A stretch of DNA of 5,230 nucleotides, taken from the NCBI GenBank assembly GCA_014384545.1, contig JACNFQ010000049.1:1-5230 (forward strand), written 5' to 3'. The translations under genes and the position numbers were made by a program. This stretch comes from a bacterium. GTDB lineage: Bacteria > UBP7 > UBA6624. Every line of letters begins with the position of its first letter. The first letter of the stretch is position 1. Of the stretch, positions 64-5,230 are shown one piece after another. Under the pieces are notes generated by a model that was not told where the DNA came from, did not search any database, and saw only the letters and a program-made list of their open reading frames with translations.

Positions 64-104
64 AAACAAGCCTCCAATACGTAAAACTGCAGTCTAACTC
101 ATCT
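64..104 (-). other. Longest intergenic gap in the window (41 nt), no promoter or terminator seen
   Basis: This gap separates the tocopherol-cyclase-like stop from the oxidoreductase ATG. It contains the GGAGG ribosome site and a CTGCAG palindrome but no hairpin with a T run and no recognisable -35/-10 pair. It therefore looks like an operon-internal spacer. Confidence 0.5.
71..75 (-). promoter_or_regulatory. Shine-Dalgarno site of the left-edge oxidoreductase gene
   Basis: Read on the minus strand this is GGAGG, followed by the 7-nt spacer CTTGTTT and an ATG at 63-61. It is the strongest ribosome site in the window. It fixes the start of the left-edge gene, which is otherwise too short here to be judged as an open frame. 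Confidence 0.75.
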
Positions 105-1082
105 TTAGCCAATGGATATGCTTGTCCGTTTCTGAGCATGTCCCAGTGCGGGAAAATCCGATTTCACTTCCTCGCCTAAGACAATACCCCGCAAACGCCC
201 ATTGAACGACTCGGGTGTAGCAAAGAGGGCTCCTCGCGGAGTGGGAAAGGAAAAGTCAACGATATCTCCGTGCTCGCCCTCCCCTTCAGCAATGAGAATT
301 CCGGACGAGGATTTCACGGTAAATGAGAAATGACCATCCTCTTCTTGGAGATTAATCTCATCACCTAGGAACGAAGCAAAGAACCGCGTTCCTTCAGGTG
401 TAGCCCACCGAAAGATCCCCGCGGACCCATTTGAAGTAGGCATCGATGCCACTTCCATCGCCCGGGGCTCCACATGCCCCGTATCTACCGCATGAATCCA
501 AGTCCAATAATTCGGAAATGCGGTGCCGTGGTTCTTCGCTTGGTAGACCCATCCCCCCTCTACATCCCAAACCTTCCCAAACTGGACGATACTCCCTTCT
601 GCAATCCCTCTCATCGTTGGCACCCTATGAACAAAAGGAAGCTTCCTCAGGTATAGCCTCTCCACCACATCAAATGCTCGTTTGTCTTCTTGACCCCTTT
701 CTGTGCCGTCAGATAACTTCCTCTGCCATCTCACATCCCACACCGCCTGTGCCGTCTTCGCCACCACAGCCCCCTCTTCCAAGACTCCACCCTCCCACTG
801 GACCAAGGCGTTCTCTGAAGAAGCGGTCCACTCCCCCTTCACTTTCTCCTGCCAAGACTGAGCACCTTCATCTCCCAATACCCCAGAAAAGAGAGTAAAT
901 CTGTCCGCTTCACCAACACTTTGTCCCGAAAGAATATGGGGCATAATAAAGAACCACTTCCCCTCCTCGGGAAGAACGACCCTAAGATTCCAGAAGTCAA
1001 ACCAATGAGGTTGCCCCCCAAAACGAAAGGCATTTCTGTAATCAATCACTTGATTCAAGTGCCCCCAAAGCCCACGCAGCAT
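105..1082 (-). CDS. Tocopherol-cyclase-like protein
   Basis: The protein has 325 residues from the ATG chosen here. It resembles the tocopherol cyclase family (plant VTE1 and bacterial relatives) at two places. Near residues 26-40, HWFDFWNLRVVLPE matches the 'GWYFKVxLPE'-like opening strand. At residues 183-198, KNHGTAFPNYWTWIHA matches the family signature 'EKNWGxxFPxxWFWVQ', preceded by a G-x-I strand (about 158-168) as in VTE1. Between and after these it is rich in beta-strand-like, aromatic segments, as expected for a lipocalin-like/beta-barrel protein. There is no signal peptide or membrane segment. The family includes the enzyme that closes the chromanol ring of vitamin E, but many bacterial members have no known substrate, so the reaction is not assigned. 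The gene starts inside the M20 gene and precedes a dinucleotide-binding oxidoreductase. The start is uncertain: ATG at 1115 gives a 74-nt overlap, ATG at 1082 a 41-nt overlap, and TTG at 1058 or GTG at 1049 almost none. None has a clear ribosome site, and the recognisable domain begins only around the 1040 region. Confidence 0.68.
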   Translation of the reverse strand: MLRGLWGHLNQVIDYRNAFRFGGQPHWFDFWNLRVVLPEEGKWFFIMPHILSGQSVGEADRFTLFSGVLGDEGAQSWQEKVKGEWTASSENALVQWEGGVLEEGAVVAKTAQAVWDVRWQRKLSDGTERGQEDKRAFDVVERLYLRKLPFVHRVPTMRGIAEGSIVQFGKVWDVEGGWVYQAKNHGTAFPNYWTWIHAVDTGHVEPRAMEVASMPTSNGSAGIFRWATPEGTRFFASFLGDEINLQEEDGHFSFTVKSSSGILIAEGEGEHGDIVDFSFPTPRGALFATPESFNGRLRGIVLGEEVKSDFPALGHAQKRTSISIG

Positions 1083-2211
1083 GGAGGGCTGCGCCCAAAG
1101 GCAAGACATCCTCATCCAACTTGAACTGGGGGTGGTGGACGCTCACCGTCGTCCCCAAGGCCTCGTTCCCAGAACCAAGTACCATAAACGCCCCCGGTAC
1201 CCGTTGAGCAAAATAGGAGAAATCCTCTCCTCCCATCACCGGATCTACCTCAACGAACTCCAATAAGTCCTCCGCGATAGCCCTTGAAAACGACCACAGG
1301 TCAGGGTCGTTTACTGTGGGCGGATAGGTCTCTCCAGGAAAAGAGATATCGATGGCGCATCGGTGTGCCTCTCCCACCCCATGTGAGATCTCTTTGACCC
1401 GTTTCTTGAGCACTTCCATTCCCGACTCGCTCAATGAGCGAATCGTCCCCTCTAGGACGACTCGCTCTGGGATCACATTGTGAGCATCCCCCCCCTTTAC
1501 CACTGTGATACTAACGACTGCACTGCTAAGGGGATCCGTCTCTCGACTAACAATCGCTTGTAAGGAACCGATGATCGCTGCCGCACAGACCACGGGATCC
1601 ACAGCGAGATAAGATGCTGCAGCATGTCCCCCTCGCCCCCTAACTACGATCCTCACTTTTGATGCCGAAGCGAGCAAAGACCCCGCTCGCCCTCCCACCA
1701 CACCCGTGGGCAAGAGGGGCCAGATATGGATCCCAAAGATTCTTGACACCTTGGGAGTTTCCAACACCCCCGCTTCACACATCTTCAACGCTCCAGCACC
1801 TCCCTCCTCTGCGGGCTGGAAAATCAACTTGACCGTTCCCTCTAGTTCTTCCTCTCTCGCTTTAAGCAACCTAGCTGCTCCTAATAGCATCGCTGTATGG
1901 GCATCATGACCACAAGCATGCATCACCCCTTTGATCTCACTCCTAAAGGGGAGATCCACCGCTTCTTGGATGGGAAGGGCATCCATATCTGCTCGTAGGG
2001 CGATTGCGGGCTCCTTACCTGTCCCTATCATCGCTACCACCCCCGTCTCAGCGATGCCCGATTCGTAGGAGACACCTAGTTCTTTCAGCGTCTTAACCAC
2101 CAACGCTTCTGTCTCTTTACAATCATAGAGAAGTTCAGGTCGGCGATGAATCGTCCGGCGAAGATTCCTTATCCAATCTTCTATTTCTAACGCTTTCAAG
2201 GTGATATTCAT
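1042..2211 (-). CDS. M20 family amidohydrolase (N-acyl-amino acid / hippurate hydrolase type)
   Basis: This 389-residue protein is a dimetal amidohydrolase of the peptidase M20 group that includes HipO, bacterial aminoacylases and the plant IAA-amino acid hydrolases. These cleave the amide bond of N-acyl amino acids in the cytoplasm. Visible motifs are RADMDALP (73-80), MHACGHDAH (97-105) with expected metal ligands C100 and H102, QPAEEG (132-137) with catalytic base E135 and ligand E136, GIHIWP (160-165) with H162, the lid-domain GGHAA (194-198) with H196, GGEDFSYF (327-334), and VHHPQF (358-363) with ligand H359. All catalytic residues are intact and the length is normal. There is no signal peptide. 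The ATG shares its A with the nadE stop (TGATG) and has AGAGGA six bases upstream, which points to translational coupling. The substrate cannot be read from sequence: acyl-amino acid, aryl-amino acid (hippurate) and N-acetyl-diaminopimelate-like substrates are all possible, the last being less likely. Confidence 0.93.
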   Translation of the reverse strand: MNITLKALEIEDWIRNLRRTIHRRPELLYDCKETEALVVKTLKELGVSYESGIAETGVVAMIGTGKEPAIALRADMDALPIQEAVDLPFRSEIKGVMHACGHDAHTAMLLGAARLLKAREEELEGTVKLIFQPAEEGGAGALKMCEAGVLETPKVSRIFGIHIWPLLPTGVVGGRAGSLLASASKVRIVVRGRGGHAAASYLAVDPVVCAAAIIGSLQAIVSRETDPLSSAVVSITVVKGGDAHNVIPERVVLEGTIRSLSESGMEVLKKRVKEISHGVGEAHRCAIDISFPGETYPPTVNDPDLWSFSRAIAEDLLEFVEVDPVMGGEDFSYFAQRVPGAFMVLGSGNEALGTTVSVHHPQFKLDEDVLPLGAALHAAWALGALESSD

Positions 2212-3860
2212 CAGAAGTCCTCTTCCGGAGCAAAACGGTGCGCAATGGGATACCGCCTACCCCGCCCAAATGCTTTGGATGTTAACTTGAGCCCCACGGT
2301 AAACTGTCTGCGCTTGAACTCGGCAAGCCTCGTTCTTCTTGAAATCTCCTTGACAAGAGGAAGCGAATACTCCTCTACCAGTTGATCCAAAGAGAGAAAC
2401 TCACCAACCATCGCCTCTACCAAAGGAGAGACCTTTCCATAGTCAAAAGGATCCACTTGATTGGGAGCGAGTTCCGCAGTGGGCTCTCTATCGATAACCC
2501 CCTCTGGAATACCAAACCCTTTCTGGTGAGCCCATCTTGACAATCCAAAGACATCACTCTTAGGAAGGTCCGCTATGGGTGCAATCGAACCACACATGTC
2601 TCCATAGAGCGTGCTATACCCCAAGGCGAGTTCCGTCTTGTTGCTGGTGTTGAGCAACAACGCCCCTCTTTCGTTCGCAACACCCATCAAGAGTAATGCC
2701 CTAAGCCGAGCTTGTATATTCTCACTCGTAACGCCACGCTCAATCTTCCCCAATAGAGAAGTGAGTGCACCCTTTACCTCCACGAACAGCTCTTCGATTT
2801 TTAGGACCGAAAAAGAGAGCCCCAATCTGTTAGCTAGTTCCGTTGCCCATTGAGTTGATTCTTCCGAAGTATAGCGGGTAGGTAAGAGATAACTGTTGAT
2901 ATTCTCTGCTCCCAAAGCTTCCGTAGAAATGAGAGCTACAAGAGAGGAATCAATCCCCCCCGACAGCCCCAAGACGGCTTGGGAATGTCCCGTCTTGGAG
3001 AAATAATCCCGTGTTCCCATCACCAGGGCACTGAAGAGTTCACTGTACCGGTCACGAGGGGAAGAGATCGCCTCGTTATGGGGACATTCCACAGAAGACC
3101 CCCTGACCTCAACGACGACGAAATCCTCCTCGAAACTCTTTCCTCTGCCTACAACCTCCCCCTGTGCATTTAAGACCAAAGAGCCCCCATCAAAGAGGAG
3201 TTCATCTTGCCCCCCCACCAAATTGCAGACAATGACAGGTATTTCGTTTTCGATGGCTGCCCGTCTATAGACAGCCTCCCTCATGCTGGGCTTGTTTTCA
3301 TGAAAGGGGCTTGCAGATAGGTTTAGGACGACCTGTGCCCCCATCGCTGCAGCTAATGTTGACGGTTTCGTTGAATAGTCCTCATCCCACAAATCCTCAC
3401 AAATCGTTATCCCCAGAACCCCCCCTCTAAAGGGGAGGACCTGATGGTTTCGGGCAGGTCGAAAGTAGCGACTTTCGTCAAAGACATCATAGGTTGGAAG
3501 GAGAGATTTGTGGAAGACCTGCTCTACTTTCCCCCCCATACAGAAAGCAGCCCCATTCATGCGGACAGGGAGCCCCCCAGGTGAAGAGAGCCCCGCTTCT
3601 ACATCACAGAATCCCATAAGGATGGCTGGCCCCTCTTCGGTCCAAAGAGCAGCTTCATTGAGTGCTCGACGGTTTGCCTCCAAAAAATCGACACGATTCA
3701 AGAGGTCTTGGGCATGGTATCCGGGCAAAGTCATTTCAGGAAAGAGAACGAGGTGGGCTCCTTCTTGGCGTCCTCTTTCCCAGAAAGAGCAACAGCGAGC
3801 TAGGTTCCCCTCAAAGTCCCCTACAGTCATATTGACCTGTGCGAGCGCAATCCTAATCAT
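2211..3860 (-). CDS. nadE: Glutamine-dependent NAD+ synthetase
   Basis: This 549-residue protein makes NAD+ from nicotinic acid adenine dinucleotide, ATP and glutamine, the last step of NAD synthesis. It has two domains. Residues 1 to about 255 are a nitrilase-type (CN hydrolase) glutaminase with the E-K-C triad at E42 (LFPEMTLPGY), K118 (FHKSLLP) and C154 (ITICEDLWDE). Residues about 275-549 are the ATP-dependent synthetase, with the pyrophosphate loop SGGIDSS at 300-306, the LLNTSNKTELALGY block at 402-415, the STLYGDMCG block at 416-424, the LPKSDVF block at 432-438, and a C-terminal EFKRRQ (514-519). The length fits the shorter bacterial glutamine-dependent type. The ATG has AGGATAGG five bases upstream and is 25 nt from the preceding glycosyltransferase stop; the TGA overlaps the M20 start. 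In the segment after AELAPNQ (462-468) it reads VDPFDYGKVSP instead of the acidic, leucine/proline-containing stretch I know from many homologues. All catalytic residues are present, so an active enzyme is expected. Confidence 0.97.
   Translation of the reverse strand: MIRIALAQVNMTVGDFEGNLARCCSFWERGRQEGAHLVLFPEMTLPGYHAQDLLNRVDFLEANRRALNEAALWTEEGPAILMGFCDVEAGLSSPGGLPVRMNGAAFCMGGKVEQVFHKSLLPTYDVFDESRYFRPARNHQVLPFRGGVLGITICEDLWDEDYSTKPSTLAAAMGAQVVLNLSASPFHENKPSMREAVYRRAAIENEIPVIVCNLVGGQDELLFDGGSLVLNAQGEVVGRGKSFEEDFVVVEVRGSSVECPHNEAISSPRDRYSELFSALVMGTRDYFSKTGHSQAVLGLSGGIDSSLVALISTEALGAENINSYLLPTRYTSEESTQWATELANRLGLSFSVLKIEELFVEVKGALTSLLGKIERGVTSENIQARLRALLLMGVANERGALLLNTSNKTELALGYSTLYGDMCGSIAPIADLPKSDVFGLSRWAHQKGFGIPEGVIDREPTAELAPNQVDPFDYGKVSPLVEAMVGEFLSLDQLVEEYSLPLVKEISRRTRLAEFKRRQFTVGLKLTSKAFGRGRRYPIAHRFAPEEDF
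2218..2223 (-). promoter_or_regulatory. Shine-Dalgarno site of the M20 amidohydrolase gene, inside the nadE 3' end
   Basis: The minus strand reads AGAGGA here, six bases before the ATG at 2211-2209. The site lies within the last codons of nadE, and the nadE stop and the M20 start share one base. Ribosomes finishing nadE could therefore restart directly on the M20 gene, and the site supports the chosen M20 start. Confidence 0.6.
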
Positions 3861-3885: not shown

Positions 3886-4884
3886 TTACCGACGCCCAAC
3901 CCACTTCTCCTTCCCTCGTTGCCACCACCCACTTATCCCACGAAACGCCTTGTCCAAATTCTCCTTGATGACCATTCTTTCTTCTCGGGGCGGGGGGGGT
4001 GTCAAAGGTTGAGAAAAACTGATTTCTTCTCTCTGCAGCCCTCTGACCGCTTCTTTAGCTCGCTTCCCCCTCCTGACCATCTCCTCTTTATCCAACCCAC
4101 CCAAGAGCCGTCCCAATCCCTGACTATCTCCACAAGGAGTATGCCATCCACCCCCTTTCTCAACGATGAAGTCTCCCAACCATTCACCGGGGGTCACAAT
4201 AACGGGCTTTCCTGCCTCTCCAGCATCTAAGAGACGGGTACGAAAGGCGACAGAAGCCTCGGCACTCCCTTCGGGATGGAGGGAAATCCACGCACCAGCT
4301 TCCCTTGCATCTTTCAGGAACTCCTTGTGAGATGTGTTCGCTCTCACCTCAAGTCCTTGGTGCGAACAGACAGAACTTGGTGTCCTTCTCCATGCACCAG
4401 GATACCTATCTGCCAAGACGACACCACGCCAACGCCCACCTGCCCACTGATGGAGTTTGAGTGCTTGAGAGAATGTCCTGACATCTAGCCAATCCCAGGC
4501 TCCTCCCCCCCACAAAATCAGTGACCCCAACGGCGACGGCTGAACGGGAGCTGGTAAAGGAGGAATCAACCAACAGGGGGAAGAGTGAAACCTCTCTCTA
4601 TGTTGGGGGTTCCGTTGGAGTCTGACTTCTTCCTGCCCCTTCCATCCCACCACAAATCCGCCCGCCAATGCGAATGCCGCATCCTCTAGAGTACGCCATG
4701 CTTGCTCAACACCTTTCTGAGGATTCCGGAAGGCATTTTCCTCCACATGGGGCGTCAGGAGGTCAACGATCCAAGGAGCCCCTTCCCAAATCTCTTCACG
4801 CTCGAGTAGGAGATCCGGGGGACCTACAATGACATCATCTCTCACTCCCTTCCACTGATCCATGCGACGCCTTGGTGCTCTCAT
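3886..4884 (-). CDS. GT4-type glycosyltransferase, short at the N-terminus
   Basis: With the start chosen here the protein has 332 residues. It resembles a group of GT-B fold, GT4-type glycosyltransferases found in polysaccharide clusters. Matching pieces are DDVIVGPP (16-23), WIVDLLTPHVEEN (38-50, like 'vVDLYDPxxxE'), LILWGGGAWDWLD (122-134, like 'LLWGGGIWDWxDP'), ADRYPG near 158-163, and a donor-site block from HPEGSAEAS (203-211) through AFRTRLLDA (213-221) and GKPVIVTPG (225-233) to a GD-rich helix near 252-262. Full-length members usually begin with a Rossmann unit of roughly 70 residues before the 'DVVI' strand; here it is missing. The tail is basic and tryptophan-rich, with no clear membrane segment. 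The ATG at 4884 overlaps the upstream stop as ATGA; an in-frame ATG at 4899 would add five residues. An in-frame TGA at 4905-4903 rules out a longer start. The gene may be a truncated but expressed protein, or a divergent subfamily. Donor and acceptor are unknown. Confidence 0.7.
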   Translation of the reverse strand: MRAPRRRMDQWKGVRDDVIVGPPDLLLEREEIWEGAPWIVDLLTPHVEENAFRNPQKGVEQAWRTLEDAAFALAGGFVVGWKGQEEVRLQRNPQHRERFHSSPCWLIPPLPAPVQPSPLGSLILWGGGAWDWLDVRTFSQALKLHQWAGGRWRGVVLADRYPGAWRRTPSSVCSHQGLEVRANTSHKEFLKDAREAGAWISLHPEGSAEASVAFRTRLLDAGEAGKPVIVTPGEWLGDFIVEKGGGWHTPCGDSQGLGRLLGGLDKEEMVRRGKRAKEAVRGLQREEISFSQPLTPPPPREERMVIKENLDKAFRGISGWWQRGKEKWVGRR

Positions 4885-5230
4885 TGCCACAGATCCCATG
4901 CTTCAGCCAGCAAATCTCCATCCAATCTCTCCAAGAAGGCGGGGTTTTTCGGTTGGACTAAGAGAGGGGCAATACGCTTCAAGTCTTCCTCCCTAGGAGG
5001 AAATCTCTCGCGCAAACTACGGACAACGGGCCACTTCTTGGCAAAGATTCGCCTACCATAAGAAGCCCCCTCTGCCCCCCACATCCAACCACGCTCTCTT
5101 GAACGTCTCTCCCTCTCTCGAGAAAAGCGCCAAGCAATCCCCAAGAGCGCGGGGACAAGATGGGATGGACTATTCAAGGCCAAGGCCAACAAGGCGTTCC
5201 TCTCCATCATTCTCTCTCTGCACCCACTTT
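4881..5230 (-). CDS. Probable C-terminal part of a family 2 glycosyltransferase (partial, runs off right edge)
   Basis: The frame is open to the window edge, with codons SGCRERMMERN before any obvious start. The segment ERNALLALALNSP, followed by a hydrophobic helix (HLVPALLGIAW) and an arginine-rich stretch (RFSRERERRSRERG), resembles the C-terminal 'xERNRLxxLLKNxP' region of family 2 glycosyltransferases, which follows the catalytic domain and docks at the membrane. The last 60 residues are charged and helical and I do not recognise them. I therefore read this as the end of a longer gene upstream. The alternative is a 109-residue hypothetical protein starting at the ATG at 5210, but that ATG has only a GAGAGA-like sequence directly against it. 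The stop overlaps the start of the next glycosyltransferase (ATGA), which suggests a shared sugar-transfer operon. The catalytic domain is outside the window, so the family call rests on the tail alone. Confidence 0.5.
   Translation of the reverse strand, partial: SGCRERMMERNALLALALNSPSHLVPALLGIAWRFSRERERRSRERGWMWGAEGASYGRRIFAKKWPVVRSLRERFPPREEDLKRIAPLLVQPKNPAFLERLDGDLLAEAWDLWQ

Follow-up and report, generated by a model that had tools for sequence, protein, structure and literature searches.

Gene content and order of the locus

The window, by which we mean the whole stretch of DNA analyzed here, is one complete contig of 5,230 bases (G000:C31) from a metagenome assembly (G000; 1.39 Mb in 107 contigs, 79% complete) of the candidate phylum UBP7. 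Its features are collected in Table 1. The gene on which we focus codes for a protein of the tocopherol cyclase family and lies in a single open frame spanning bases 105-1115 of the minus strand. A preliminary description of this DNA had placed the start of the gene at the ATG at 1082; the GTG at 1049 is probably the true start, because the orthologues from two related genomes (G001 and G002) open with MNFD(Y/H)RN (MNFDYRN or MNFDHRN) where the window protein has (V)IDYRN, the codons there being GTG-ATT-GAT-TAC-AGA. With this start the gene slightly overlaps the stop of the gene upstream, and both relatives show the same arrangement. The two motifs quoted in that description are both present on the minus strand, HWFDFWNLRVVLPE at 966-1007 and KNHGTAFPNYWTWIHA at 489-536.

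Table 1. Features of the 5,230-base window, with the basis of each assignment
Feature	Position	Strand	Basis or remark
Start of flavin halogenase/geranylgeranyl-reductase-like gene, 21 codons, MNGENGVELRNEYDFVVIGGG, cut by contig end	1..63	minus	sequence
GGAGG, probable ribosome-binding site of the flavoprotein gene	71..75	minus	sequence
Tocopherol-cyclase-like protein (PF14249), 314 aa	105..1049	minus	start inferred from orthologues
TAA stop of the cyclase-like gene	107-105	minus	
Core motif block KNHGTAFPNYWTWIHA (family: YxEKNWG..FP..W.W)	489..536	minus	sequence; compare PMC4963081
KNHG (Lys-Asn-His-Gly; His replaces the Trp of other members)	525..536	minus	sequence
First strand motif HWFDFWNLRVVLP, aligned with RFFEGWYYRVTLP of full-length cyclase L006	969..1007	minus	hhalign
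Alternative ATG starts of the cyclase-like gene	1082 or 1115	minus	
M20 family amidohydrolase/carboxypeptidase	1042..2211	minus	conserved upstream neighbor; overlap of about 8 bases with the cyclase-like gene
Glutamine-dependent NAD+ synthase	2211..3860	minus	position conserved; shorter form in relatives
Glycosyltransferase-like protein	3886..4899	minus	synteny; G001 orthologue weakly matches GT1 families
C-terminal part of a gene, cut by contig end; family 2 glycosyltransferase here in relatives	4881..5228	minus	synteny

The same gene order is found in G001 and G002, where it reads glycosyltransferase, glycosyltransferase-like protein, NAD synthase, M20 amidohydrolase, cyclase-like protein, flavoprotein and fatty-acid desaturase, followed by an alpha/beta hydrolase on the other strand and then by glycine cleavage genes. 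The NAD and amide metabolism genes that the preliminary description had pointed out are the upstream neighbors of the cyclase-like gene within the same gene run. Its remark that nothing else in the window points to tocopherol or quinone synthesis does not hold for lipids in general: the contig breaks 21 codons into the flavoprotein gene, behind which a desaturase gene lies in all three genomes. The remainder of the flavoprotein of G000, corresponding to the G001 protein from residue 50 onward, sits at the end of another contig (G000:C17). That contig also carries the desaturase of G000 and continues, as in the relatives, with the hydrolase gene and those for glycine cleavage. From this synteny we infer that the window contig adjoins G000:C17 across a gap of about 20 codons. 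The flavoprotein and desaturase frames share a 4-base overlap in each of the three genomes. The synteny is drawn from three genomes, two of which are of one genus, with completeness of 79, 86 and 62%.

Several further observations concern the surroundings of these genes. The two glycosyltransferase-like genes (window 3886-5228) upstream of the NAD synthase are syntenic in all three genomes; the first of them in the window has no Pfam or NCBIfam match. The NAD synthase of the window is a protein of 549 aa carrying a glutaminase (CN_hydrolase) domain; in the relatives the corresponding frames are of 270 and 378 aa and open with the synthase part (L035 11222-12034; L036 11573-12709). The hydrolase directly past the desaturase in all three genomes is BioH-like and lies on the opposite strand (e.g., L066 16059-16889 (+); L035 6205-6927 (+)), and it might belong with the preceding genes. 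The stretches from G001 and G002 have a GC content of about 35-36%, the window looks clearly richer, and the gene order is kept nonetheless.

In a small sample, the combination of cyclase-like, flavoprotein and desaturase genes was absent beside 18 distant cyclase-like genes. It was likewise absent around the best relatives of the flavoprotein and of the desaturase (27 loci each, 1.5 kb flanks), where it was sought by simple ORF calling that missed the flavoprotein or the desaturase itself at some loci, making the comparison weak there. A search of the literature also returned nothing resembling this three-gene cassette.

A divergent tocopherol cyclase family member with an altered signature

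The assignment to the tocopherol cyclase family made in the preliminary description is borne out by a profile search, in which the window protein matched PF14249 with 32.5 bits (E 6.6e-8; Pfam cut-off 26.6); it had no match in NCBIfam. Its orthologues in G001 and G002, genomes from the same family as G000, hold the corresponding position there, share 42 and 40% identity with it, respectively, and also score above the cut-off (33.6 and 39.1 bits). A profile of the three UBP7 sequences compared with hhalign against 12 other bacterial cyclase-like proteins aligned over 253 columns (E 2e-16, probability 98.7), placing KNHG on KNWG and HWFDFWNLRVVLP on RFFEGWYYRVTLP, and against the three full-length cyclases alone it gave 94% and 1e-7; these comparisons were run pairwise, which makes their E-values rough. 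As the orthologues hold the same place in two genomes and the profile comparison reaches E 2e-16, the PF14249 match is not due to chance. Judged by these alignments, the homology covers both halves of the protein, extending along its whole length and beyond any single motif. The window gene thus codes for a real, divergent and full-length PF14249 protein whose core motif is altered.

Across 386 sampled genomes the PF14249 profile matched in 31, and in 26 of these it exceeded the cut-off. Three full-length matches, presumably cyanobacterial, score above 500 bits as against 32.5 for the window protein. Beyond the family, the closest match in the first genome sample showed 26% identity with partial coverage. 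A protein-query search of genome contigs recovered no relative of the cyclase-like protein, viral contigs scanned twice for homologues that would deepen the alignment yielded none, and a sequence search of the PDB matched no solved structure. A separate bacterial PF14249 group (L037, L042, L045) has EKDWG in place of EKNWG, with FEGWYxK at the start in most cases.

The motif YxEKNWG is fully conserved across photosynthetic organisms and has been proposed to be catalytic (PMC4963081). In all three UBP7 proteins it reads YQAKNHG, with alanine in place of the glutamate and histidine in place of the tryptophan. The replacement of Trp by His in KNHG, reported for the window protein in the preliminary description, is therefore lineage-wide. 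In contrast, the Trp is kept in every homologue with a readable motif (KNWG, RNWG, HNWG or KDWG), about ten further PF14249 hits being too divergent, or of too doubtful a frame, for the motif to be read. Further, the C-terminal GLExG shared by ten homologues is replaced, including its glutamate, by ALGSG or ALGHA in the UBP7 proteins.

Since the Glu and Trp of YxEKNWG and the glutamate of GLExG are all replaced, the protein may have lost catalysis. It could then be a lipid-binding protein whose barrel holds an intermediate, either a fatty acid or an isoprenoid, in store for its two partner enzymes or in order to present it to them, a reading that is possible but to which we give decidedly less than even weight. 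Besides the replaced residues, it is favored by the lower conservation of the cyclase-like protein between G000 and G001 (42%) than of its partners (59% for the flavoprotein and 56% for the desaturase), and by the proposal that NE1406, a protein of related fold, binds lipid ligands (PMC2954199). On the other side, the UBP7 genera share KNHG..FP..W.W.HA and a large number of aromatic and polar residues without change, a pattern that would suit an active site equally well.

The altered motif likewise tells against an ordinary tocopherol cyclase (EC 5.5.1.24) acting within a complete vitamin E pathway. Family membership is all that speaks for this reading, and the score of 32.5 bits against the more than 500 of the full-length matches, together with the gene content of the incomplete genomes considered below, renders it exceedingly improbable. 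The resemblance to the tocopherol cyclases VTE1 of plants and slr1737 of Synechocystis comprises a PF14249 score over the cut-off, homology in both halves, the F..W of the first strand and the KN.G..FP..W.W block; the UBP7 proteins differ in having YxAKNHG and in lacking the C-terminal GLExG, and their genes are followed by those for the flavoprotein and desaturase in genomes where no vitamin E pathway was found.

Partner enzymes and the biosynthetic setting

The flavoprotein matches PF04820 with 69.5 bits. It scores 133 bits with a CmlS-type halogenase model (cut-off 900) and 110 bits with GG-red-SF, the model for the geranylgeranyl reductase superfamily (cut-off 158.8), and it reaches the cut-off of none of the named models. 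Its best match in the PDB is the halogenase 3e1t (E 4e-43, about 150 bits over 366 residues). It shares the GxGxxG motif with flavin-dependent halogenases (3e1t, PltA, CmlS) and geranylgeranyl reductases; however, at the site of the halogenase motif WxWxIP (PMC5945002) it has WxWxAP, reading WYWWAP in G001 and G002 and WFWWAP in G000. We accordingly treat it as a candidate halogenase, reductase or oxygenase. The third protein matches the fatty-acid desaturase family PF00487 above the cut-off in G001 and G002 (56.0 and 55.7 bits), its sequence matches in the PDB are acyl-CoA desaturases, and its three histidine boxes (HRYDAH/HRHDSH, HRKHH and HNNHH) are found in all three genomes, with the G000 protein combining these boxes with a DesA-like match. 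It thereby resembles the acyl-CoA and DesA-type desaturases, but scores well under the cut-off of the DesA model.

No gene for HPPD was detected in G000, G001 or G002, and no prenyltransferase of the homogentisate- or chlorophyll-specific types was identified in them, although genes may have been overlooked in genomes that are 79, 86 and 62% complete. Of the three UbiA-family proteins in G000, one types as heme O synthase, another is a UbiA/MqnP-like prenyltransferase adjoining a menaquinone decarboxylase, and the third is decaprenyl-phosphate phosphoribosyltransferase-like; hence, none types as a homogentisate prenyltransferase. In G001 and G002, the UbiA-family proteins were assigned solely from the adjoining genes. 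With no homogentisate- or chlorophyll-type prenyltransferase seen, the organism is probably non-photosynthetic, as the preliminary description had supposed, and devoid of vitamin E. None of the three genomes yielded a 16S rRNA gene.

The quinone-related genes bear on another possibility, in which the organism would make menaquinone and the cyclase-like protein would form a chromanol ring from menaquinol, with the flavoprotein serving as a MenJ-type side-chain reductase. The placement of the MqnP-type/UbiA-like prenyltransferase match next to the menaquinone decarboxylase would fit such a scheme, as would the weak match of the flavoprotein to MenJ (49 bits) and the acceptance of plastoquinol by the plant cyclase (PMC4963081). 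However, the flavoprotein is far closer to halogenases and general geranylgeranyl reductases than to MenJ, the scheme leaves the fatty-acid desaturase with no role, and YxEKNWG is altered; we consider this activity unlikely.

Predicted fold and proposed role

Structure prediction with AlphaFold2 from three sequences produced two poor models (pLDDT 40 and 35). The best PDB matches of the first model (pLDDT 40) were 25-phosphosteroid lyase, the Phm7/Fsa2 pericyclases and NE1406, with E-values of 1.3e-3 to 3e-2. VIA-align 2 added kievitone hydratase to these matches; its top 11 rows have Z of 7.2-8.4 over residues about 5-195, in a procedure where Z up to about 8 can arise by chance, and the lower rows comprise 5hal (6.7), a second kievitone hydratase (5.8) and unrelated structures from 4.9 downward. 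Several of these proteins we take to be lyases, hydratases or cyclases whose substrates are polyenes or lipid-like compounds. It is the agreement of the top rows on one fold, rather than any single score, that suggests a double calycin-type fold. Of the related beta barrel anticipated in the preliminary description, the first model thus provides a calycin-type candidate, whereas the second (pLDDT 35) had no significant structural match. The likeness to the AttH/CrtC-like calycin proteins kievitone hydratase, 25-phosphosteroid lyase, Fsa2/Phm7 and NE1406 comes from a low-confidence model; the PDB search gave no match at the sequence level, and function is not transferable from this group.

NE1406 is a remote relative of the CrtC family (PMC2954199), and its presence among the structural neighbors raises the prospect of a CrtC-type carotenoid hydratase. 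This we hold to be very unlikely: G000, G001 and G002, incomplete as they are, contain no gene of the phytoene/squalene synthase family, none of them has a match to PF07143 (CrtC), and profiles of the cyclase-like proteins found no match when compared with PF07143 hits, in an alignment that held at least one doubtful ORF. The essential residues of CrtC are His239, Trp241, Tyr266 and Asp268 (PMC4717167). By spacing, our guess is that its His239-x-Trp241 corresponds to the K-N-W of the cyclase family, and if the motifs do correspond, the essential Trp241 would be a histidine here.

The explanation we favor, while according it slightly less than even odds, is that the cyclase-like protein is a proton-transfer cyclase or hydratase acting on a lipid C=C bond, its gene opening a conserved three-gene lipid-tailoring cassette of UBP7. 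Under this proposal, the membrane fatty-acid desaturase would insert a C=C bond into a lipid chain and the flavin-dependent enzyme of the halogenase/geranylgeranyl-reductase superfamily would reduce, oxidize or halogenate that chain. The cyclase-like protein, as a double calycin (lipocalin-type) barrel, would bind the product and protonate or otherwise activate the C=C bond, leading to ring closure or hydration. The action of the three proteins in one pathway, the catalytic nature of the barrel and the type of reaction are what we infer here; adjacency by itself is insufficient for a shared pathway, since housekeeping genes (NAD synthase, glycine cleavage) are also part of the synteny. More speculatively, the three genes may represent a hitherto undescribed UBP7 lipid-tailoring pathway, in which a desaturase, a flavin-dependent halogenase/reductase-like enzyme and a tocopherol-cyclase-like enzyme whose active site has been remodeled by the exchange of Trp for His and Glu for Ala yield a membrane lipid that is cyclized, hydrated or halogenated.

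Proteins resembling tocopherol cyclase were described from heterotrophic bacteria in 2016 (PMC4963081), so that the presence of one in a heterotroph, as put forward in the preliminary description, is by itself not new. The UBP7 proteins resemble those earlier examples in their hosts, probably non-photosynthetic in the case of UBP7, and in the conserved motif block, but differ from them in that the latter keep the Trp wherever it is readable and no such cassette was found beside them. Judged by the literature and genomes searched, the UBP7 branch, with its changed motif and its conserved cassette of three genes, appears new. For this one branch of the cyclase-like proteins of heterotrophs, the fixed three-gene neighborhood hints at a substrate class, a lipid into which an enzyme has introduced a C=C bond, and the naturally occurring replacements of Trp by His and of Glu by Ala give a way to probe the role of YxEKNWG.
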